Assembly (NCBI GenBank): GCA_020248905.1
Contig: JADCGR010000031.1
Span: forward strand, 1-64,000
DNA: 64,000 nt
Source of the DNA: Curvibacter sp.
Lineage (GTDB): Bacteria; Pseudomonadota; Gammaproteobacteria; Burkholderiales; Burkholderiaceae_C
Direction: 5' to 3'
How positions within the stretch are numbered: position 1 is the first letter of the stretch; the number at the start of each line of letters is the position of its first letter. The notes under the pieces are model-generated. The model made no database searches and had not been told where the DNA came from. It saw only the letters and a list, made by a program, of their open reading frames with translations. Of the stretch, positions 1 to 14,690 are shown one piece after another. The position numbers and the translations under genes were made by a program.

Positions 1-128
1 CTCGCGATTACGCTCCACGCTTCCTTCCCACGCTCGGTCACCCTCACGCAGTTGCGCTTCGCTTTGCTCACTGTGACCAGTTCGCAGCGGGACTTGCACC
101 CGCAAGAGTGCGCCCATGCTGGGCGCAC
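1..128 (-). mobile_element. Group II intron (class C type), 5' end only
   Basis: Read on the minus strand from position 128 the sequence begins GTGCGCCCAGCATGGGCGCA, the form of a group II intron 5' end (GUGYGCC). Domain I-like helices follow: a perfect 9-bp hairpin (128-120 with 116-108), a GCGGG/CCCGC hairpin holding the GGGTGCAAGTCCC block (103-87), and a longer pairing GGTCAC (78-73) with GTGACC (41-36). The order and several blocks resemble what I remember of the Oceanobacillus iheyensis IIC intron. The rest, including any reverse transcriptase and domain V, would lie beyond position 1. Class C introns are known to insert just after rho-independent terminators, and this one starts directly after the T-tract of the rpmA terminator. 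I infer an intron with its 5' splice site between 129 and 128. Confidence 0.82.
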
Positions 129-162
129 AAAACAAAAACCCTGCGCGGGCGGCGCAGGGTTT
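129..162 (-). terminator. Rho-independent terminator of rplU-rpmA
   Basis: An 11-bp perfect inverted repeat (136-146 with 152-162, loop of five) is followed on the minus strand by TTTTTGTTTT (138-129). It lies 22 bases after the rpmA stop, the classical structure and place for the operon terminator. The T-tract runs straight into the 5' end of the group II intron. Confidence 0.9.
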
Positions 163-183
163 CGCGGTTGGGCCGGGCGACGA

Positions 184-441
184 TCAGGCAGCGGTTACGT
201 TCACCGTCTGCTTGTTCAGCGCGCCCTTGGTGGCGAAGGAGACCTCGCCATCAACCAGGGCGAAAAGGGTGTGGTCCTTGCCCACCCCGACGTTGGAACC
301 GGGGTGAAACTTGGTGCCGCGCTGGCGAACGATGATGGAGCCCGCGCTAATCTGCTGGCCGCCAAACACCTTCACACCGAGCATCTTGGGCTGCGAATCG
401 CGCCCGTTACGCGTAGAGCCGCCGCCTTTTTTCTGTGCCAT
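184..441 (-). CDS. rpmA: 50S ribosomal protein L27
   Basis: Eighty-five residues, the normal length. The N-terminus [16 protein letters not shown] is the conserved L27 tail that reaches towards the peptidyl-transferase centre; there is no extra N-terminal propeptide of the Firmicutes kind. It belongs to the large ribosomal subunit. It follows rplU by 12 bases on the same strand, the usual rplU-rpmA pair, and ends just before a strong terminator. The usual next gene, obgE, is not in view: the intron occupies the downstream side. Confidence 0.98.
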
Positions 442-453
442 TTTTGTTGCCCC

Positions 454-765
454 TTATGCGGCGATGGCGCCGATTTGCAGCTCGGTGAACTGCTGGCGGT
501 GCCCTTGACGTTTCTGATAGTGTTTGCGACGGCGCATTTTGAAGATGCGAACCTTGTCGTGCAAGCCATGGGCCACGACAGTGGCTTTGACAGTGGCGCC
601 GGACACCAGGGGCGTACCGACCTTGAGTTCAGCGCCGTTTCCGACAGCCAACACCTGGTCGATCACGATCTCCTGGCCTACGTCCGCAGCAATCTGTTCT
701 ACTTTGATTTTCTCGCCAGCAGCAACACGATACTGTTTGCCGCCGGTTTTTATGACCGCGTACAT
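454..765 (-). CDS. rplU: 50S ribosomal protein L21
   Basis: One hundred and three residues beginning [23 protein letters not shown], the conserved L21 N-terminus, and containing the basic stretch [16 protein letters not shown] that contacts 23S rRNA. I take the ATG at 763-765, preceded by AGAGG at a proper distance, rather than an upstream in-frame start that would add 17 non-conserved residues. It is the first gene of the rplU-rpmA operon and is divergent from ispB. Confidence 0.98.
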
Positions 766-1923: not shown

Positions 1924-2000
<77 letters not shown>

Positions 2001-14614: not shown

Positions 14615-14690
14615 TGGTGCCGATTGTCGGATTCGAACTGACGACCTACCGCTTACAAGGCGGGTGCTCTACCAACTGAGCTAAATCGGC
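14615..14690 (-). tRNA. thrT: tRNA-Thr(TGT)
   Basis: A 76-nt cloverleaf on the minus strand: acceptor GCCGATT pairs with AATCGGC, and CCA is encoded (14615-14617). The anticodon loop CTTGTAA gives TGT, with the first base pair of the anticodon stem mismatched (C-T). D arm and TTCGAAT T loop are standard. It lies alone between the DciA-like gene and sspB. Confidence 0.95.

Follow-up and report, generated by a model that had tools for sequence, protein, structure and literature searches.

Behind the terminator of rpmA, the gene for ribosomal protein L27, a genome assembly of Curvibacter sp. (GCA_020248905.1) does not run on into obgE, and the locus therefore raises the question of what occupies that place and how it could have arrived there. 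The window, that is, the whole stretch of DNA analysed (64,000 nucleotides), is contig JADCGR010000031.1, here called C25, from its first base, and the place in question lies at this very end. An original prediction, made from the sequence letters, had a group IIC-type intron start exactly at position 128 of the minus strand and displace obgE. The answer supported here, to which a probability of about 0.96 is given, is that a mobile group II intron of class C (IIC), whose 5' end opens the window, has inserted between rpmA and obgE, into the U-tract with which the rpmA terminator ends, in sense orientation along the transcript. The features concerned are the following.

1..128, minus strand: opening 128 nt of the group IIC intron, which continues past the window; the full copy is at G000:C8 89961-88080 (L013 3962-2081, minus)
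108..128, minus strand: perfect 5' terminal hairpin of the intron, GTGCGCCC[A-GCA-T]GGGCGCAC, which folds
129..163, minus strand: rpmA intrinsic terminator, stem 163-152/146-135, T-tract to 129
184..441, minus strand: rpmA (ribosomal protein L27), the gene with the targeted terminator; coordinates from the sequence, name by protein sequence and obgE synteny
454..765, minus strand: rplU (ribosomal protein L21), the upstream neighbour; coordinates from the sequence, name by inspection

The intron boundary behind rpmA

Positions 1-128 (minus strand) form the 5' end of the intron, directly behind the terminator. The strand reads ...GCGCAGGGTTTTTGTTTT|GTGCGCCCAGCATGGGCGCAC..., so that the switch from terminator to intron falls between 129 and 128. 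The terminator stem folds and its T-tract reaches the boundary, as had been predicted; over 129-175 the folding energy is -22.3 kcal/mol, against -14.4 (sd 2.6) for shuffled sequences, of which 1 in 200 was equally good. The last terminator bases, GTTTT, are the IBS1 of this intron copy. The 5' end of the intron itself, GTGCGCCCAGCATGG, agrees at every position with the class C 5' boundary consensus, GUNYGCCNRGCAUGG, given in excerpts of PMC4028801.

Domain I is more weakly marked in the window. In a 1-kb scan, the Rfam model group-II-D1D4-4 was placed at 105-8 with 28.6 bits (E 0.00027), which misses the cut-off of 49, and a scan of the whole window at gathering thresholds returned two tRNAs and no group II intron match. 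Taken by themselves, these results would allow for hairpins that cluster behind rpmA by coincidence, with no intron at all. Such a coincidence is refuted by the complete copy on contig C8, which belongs to a multicopy element (15 further copies) with a reverse transcriptase (RT), covariance matches over threshold and defined 3' ends, and its probability is negligible. Besides the two tRNA genes, at window positions 1924-1997 (plus strand) and 14618-14690 (minus strand), no Rfam match in the window passes its cut-off.

The complete element and its copies

The part of the intron cut off by the window is represented at the end of contig C8 (L013 3962-2081, minus), where a complete intron of 1882 nt runs from GTGCGCCC to GCCGAT, and where the contig ends two bases upstream of the intron 5' end. 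The intron ends coincide with the limits of homology to plasmid-borne relatives: query positions 1-1882 align end to end with plasmid records, e.g. that of Polaromonas sp. JS666 at 80.2%, and in 77 of the 498 records with a match, a single place spans 80% or more of the intron. Ribozyme domains I-IV of the C8 copy are matched by RF02001 (group-II-D1D4-3, 109.3 bits, cut-off 32) and by RF01998 (group-II-D1D4-1, 41.4 bits, cut-off 35), and the domain I proposed for the minus strand, sub-threshold in the window, is thus borne out in the full copy. The original prediction had also called for a domain V, for which Rfam gave no match at E <= 1 in the complete C8 copy; two adjacent domain V/VI-like hairpins fold in the stretch from the RT stop codon to the 3' end (-51 kcal/mol, z -5.37). 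The 3' ends found in this genome, CCUAUGCCGAU or CCUUUGCCGAU, equal the class C 3' boundary consensus CCUACYCGAU (excerpts of PMC4028801) in the last five letters and have one extra base before them.

Window positions 1 to ~140 recur at 15 further places of the genome (16 in all), and the intron 3' end at 14 places. These comprise 14 intact flanked 5' junctions, 13 intact 3' junctions and one decayed older copy. All 14 of the 5' junctions end TT|GTGCGCCC, the exact 5' end at 128 holds as predicted, and all 13 intact 3' junctions read ...T[A/T]TGCCGAT|. Identity is 97-100% over most of the 5' matches and likewise over most of the 3' matches, and since the copies differ so little at their ends, the sequences suggest that the intron spread recently. 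For the same reason, and because no contig spans the join between C25 and C8, the assembled full C8 copy may be a mosaic. Contig C25 stops at window position 1 because the intron is a repeat; the stretches around the other copies also end near the match, contigs being broken in the repeat, with the exception of the decayed copy (L014, G000:C19 ~28.6-30.5 kb). The latter is ~79% identical, has an RT with stops and frame breaks, is devoid of the first two dozen bases and of a terminator, and starts right behind the stop codon of a small ORF.

The reverse transcriptase and the class of the intron

The C8 copy encodes an RT in an unbroken frame of 467 aa with a YADD motif, its GTG start being the choice of the gene-calling tool. 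The protein scores 402.6 bits against TIGR04416 (cut-off 300). Among Pfam domains, RVT_1 (123-328) and GIIM (346-418) were both matched over cut-off, and, with the protein ending at 467, these two alone were found at E <= 0.001, without any endonuclease domain. Its best solved relative by PDB sequence match is 6ar1, the GsI-IIC RT (417 bits), followed by 7uim (308 bits) and 5hhj (249 bits), and then by 6me0 (142 bits) and LtrA (135 bits). We take 7uim and 5hhj to be of class IIC, 6me0 of IIB and LtrA of IIA. Judged by its sequence, assignment of the RT to the class C lineage is supported. Another contig of the assembly, L028 (G000:C46, 3883 bases), consists entirely of a single 1293-aa open frame that has an RT match; this frame looks to us like a eukaryotic non-LTR retrotransposon and is perhaps an assembly contamination.

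The silence of the Rfam domain V model and the additional base at the 3' end might point to an intron of another class, either a IIB-like lineage or the class C-attC subgroup. However, the GsI-IIC RT is the best solved relative by far, the 5' end follows the class C consensus exactly, and inspection shows terminators as targets at 13 of the 14 sites, so that another class is extremely improbable and the group IIC assignment of the original prediction stands. Class C introns, according to excerpts of PMC4424553, PMC7161350 and PMC8919778, have no endonuclease domain, recognise a stem-loop together with a short IBS1, insert behind terminators and draw the primer for cDNA synthesis from the replication fork. 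The anatomy of the Curvibacter intron fits each testable point of this description. As far as the same excerpts go, the terminator introns B.h.I1, Ta.it.I1 and GsI-IIC share with it the endonuclease-less RT, the 5' consensus, the terminator hairpin as target, the short EBS1-IBS1 pairing and the intergenic insertion, and only sequence, copy number and host differ. Class C-attC introns (S.ma.I2 and its kin), as portrayed in the excerpts of PMC4424553, are likewise IIC introns with a DNA stem-loop as target, whereas 13 of the 14 flanks inspected here look like terminators rather than integron attC sites. Three introns of Azotobacter vinelandii CA (L089, L111 and L115), a species from which the IIC intron A.v.I2 has been named (excerpts of PMC7161350), have an RT 70% identical and the same 5' hairpin, and all three lie behind a hairpin with a T-rich tail. 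Their EBS1 loops are CAATAA or CAGTAA, as compared with AAGAAA in Curvibacter, and their sites match, ending in G.

The rpmA-obgE locus and its empty site

The displacement of obgE could be followed on C8, where obgE (GTP1_OBG) lies directly behind the intron copy. It is the sole full-length obgE match in the assembly, next to two weak partial matches on C23 and C3. All 25 congeneric genomes have the order rpmA-terminator-obgE without an intron, the aligned parts of the two genes being 73-147 nt apart; the empty site was counted over 26 of 29 congeneric loci, L152, L157 and L158 being left out as they offer no usable rpmA part. The exact half-site GGGTTTTTGTTTT followed by C is kept in 7 of the 26 informative loci, and several congeners share CGGCTTGTCAT...GGGA with the 3' flank on C8.

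Since the window breaks off where the contig does and no contig joins C25 and C8, it could be held that the rpmA site carries a 5' intron fragment only and that the complete C8 copy arrived independently. This is very unlikely, because the unique sequence of C8 opens with obgE together with a spacer that matches the one between rpmA and obgE in the congeners, the assembly holds no second full-length obgE, and obgE follows rpmA in 25 of 25 congeners. A single intron between the two genes, through which C25 and C8 join, is very probably the correct arrangement, on the basis of synteny and with no spanning contig. What had been proposed to lie beyond position 1 is accordingly present on C8, linked to C25 by synteny: the complete element, its RT, group II covariance matches over cut-off and, past its 3' end, obgE. 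The predicted spliced product would join ...TTTTGTTTT to CTTCAGCG. Because the intron lies behind a terminator, its transcription would depend chiefly on read-through.

Among the 25 congeners, no close relatives of the RT were found, save for 46 residues (85%) where a contig of G014 ends, and the intron therefore appears to be patchy in the genus. The idea that the rpmA-obgE interval might be a recurrent intron target in other species was rejected, as tblastn (E <= 1e-5) gave no RpmA, RplU or Obg match in 80 relative loci with flanks of up to 4 kb, many of them shorter. In the excerpts that a literature search on rpmA or obgE together with group II introns returned, no report of this insertion site was met.

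Target recognition

The 14 insertion sites in the Curvibacter genome have much in common. By inspection, 13 lie behind a terminator hairpin with a T-tract, and when no fewer than 7 T among the last 12 bases together with an MFE <= -12 are demanded, 11 of the 14 pass, against 2 of 2000 random stretches of the window. The site on C44 has a weak energy (-10.3), yet its hairpin and T-tract are plain. The site at the C40 end (L021 2100-2170) has no strong terminator hairpin (MFE -11.6, with half of the background equally good) and carries a perfect IBS1, TTCTT. Three sites (L016, L022 and L024; 3 of 13 loci scanned) lie behind tRNA genes of the same direction.

A similar preference is seen in relatives. 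The best 80 of 493 loci were retained, with RTs 64-89% identical in the best segment, and 62 of these were used, after removal of 15 without room at the 5' side, two without a 5' end and L051, a false placement. A terminator-like hairpin lies upstream in 50 of the 62, as against 36 of 3000 random stretches. Among the 12 relatives that fail the terminator criterion, six have by eye a hairpin with a short T-run, L075, L078 and L108 sit at the ends or hairpins of other introns, and L086, L090 and L118 look different.

The EBS1 is the loop that follows GGGC in domain I. In Curvibacter it is AAGAA(A), as read from the single assembled copy, and it pairs at 5 of 5 positions with TTCTT sites; the window IBS1, GTTTT, forms three Watson-Crick pairs and one GU pair out of five with AAGAA. 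When GU is counted, 4 or 5 of the 5 positions pair at 13 of the 14 sites, and 3 of 5 at the site on C10. In relatives the loop could be found by pattern in 55 of 62 (two of the seven failures, L053 and L117, have runs of N there). In these 55, the first four bases of EBS1 form 166 Watson-Crick pairs out of 220 with site positions -1 to -4, against 92.4 +- 6.0 in shuffled pairings, none of 2000 of which reached 166, a statistic that still includes the relatedness among relatives.

On the model of the family, the intron RNA and its own RT would recognise the terminator hairpin in exposed single-stranded DNA, the EBS1 loop would read the short IBS1 beside it, and the intron would reverse-splice behind the hairpin and be copied into DNA from a replication fork primer. 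A primer derived from the fork is proposed because the RT has no endonuclease domain.

Introns at the hairpins and ends of other introns

The 5' terminal hairpin of the intron is widely kept: all 9 pairs are standard in 57 of the 62 relatives, with an exchange of A-T to G-C at the loop-closing pair. That the hairpin might serve specially to block the GUGCG end is speculation, since it is conserved across the family.

In three of the relatives, an intron borders on another intron. One such arrangement is that of L108 3587-5636 (G424, an uncultured Burkholderiales, Umea2p1_bin-0175), in which an outer IIC intron is split after nt 26, directly behind its 5' hairpin plus ACCTG, by a full IIC intron of 1884 nt with an RT relative (466 residues matched), and resumes at nt 27. 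Once joined, the outer flanks agree with the Curvibacter intron at 157 of 166 positions, and the EBS1 of the inner intron, CAGG, pairs fully with CCTG. The same genome has five outer 5' ends, on C207 and also on C65, C155, C224 and C281, with five different upstream flanks, and all five are interrupted at nt 26. The contigs other than C207 show only 46-92 nt of the inner intron, and the resumption of the outer intron was observed a single time. The genome also has three intron 3' ends next to unique flanks, with a 3' domain unlike that of the inner intron; these would belong to the outer intron.

The two other arrangements are in tandem. In L078 1-2856, a first IIC intron ends in CCCGAT and a second, different one starts at the very next base; the two RT parts are 63% and 79% identical to the Curvibacter RT, and the EBS1 of the second intron, ATCG, pairs fully with CGAT. 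In L075 1-2000, an intron likewise starts directly behind an intron 3' end, and the 115 upstream nt look identical to its own 3' end; whether this is a tandem copy or an assembly artefact is doubtful.

Nesting of IIC introns is rare. A nested pattern of two 5' hairpins 3-11 nt apart was found in 0 of 399 genomes of the family, and a search of 399 genomes from the order for the tandem pattern CCSAT|GTGCGCCC brought up a single match (G046, L169), which proved on inspection not to lie behind an intron 3' end. The evidence for nesting thus comes from G424, and that for tandem introns from L078 and L075. Twintrons in general have been described (excerpts of PMC2882425 and PMC4424553). A literature search combining twintrons with group IIC brought up PMC4424553 and PMC8919778, and in the excerpts returned no IIC twintron with its inner intron behind a 5' hairpin was met. 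The group IIB twintrons of Thermosynechococcus elongatus (excerpts of PMC2882425) resemble L108 in that an intron sits at a fixed place in another intron, in several copies. In T. elongatus, ORF-less introns separate two start codons of the outer ORF, whereas in L108 a full, RT-encoding IIC intron lies behind nt 26 of the outer intron. It is tentatively proposed, at slightly less than even odds, that IIC introns land on the 5' hairpin plus 5 nt of other IIC introns, or on the domain VI hairpin plus 3' end, by means of a retargeted EBS1, and that this yields a multicopy IIC twintron (L108) and tandem introns (L078, perhaps L075).

Meaning of the locus

The start of the window is a mobile element, and this accounts both for the end of the contig and for the location of obgE. 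The intron is clean but ordinary and confirms known class C biology, and the 14 insertion sites of one IIC intron in one genome provide a well-defined set from which target rules could be read. If the proposed landing of IIC introns on one another is true, related introns would find a built-in refuge in the perfect 5' hairpin, and IIC introns would supply their own safe landing sites and offer a natural test of retargeting by short changes in EBS1.
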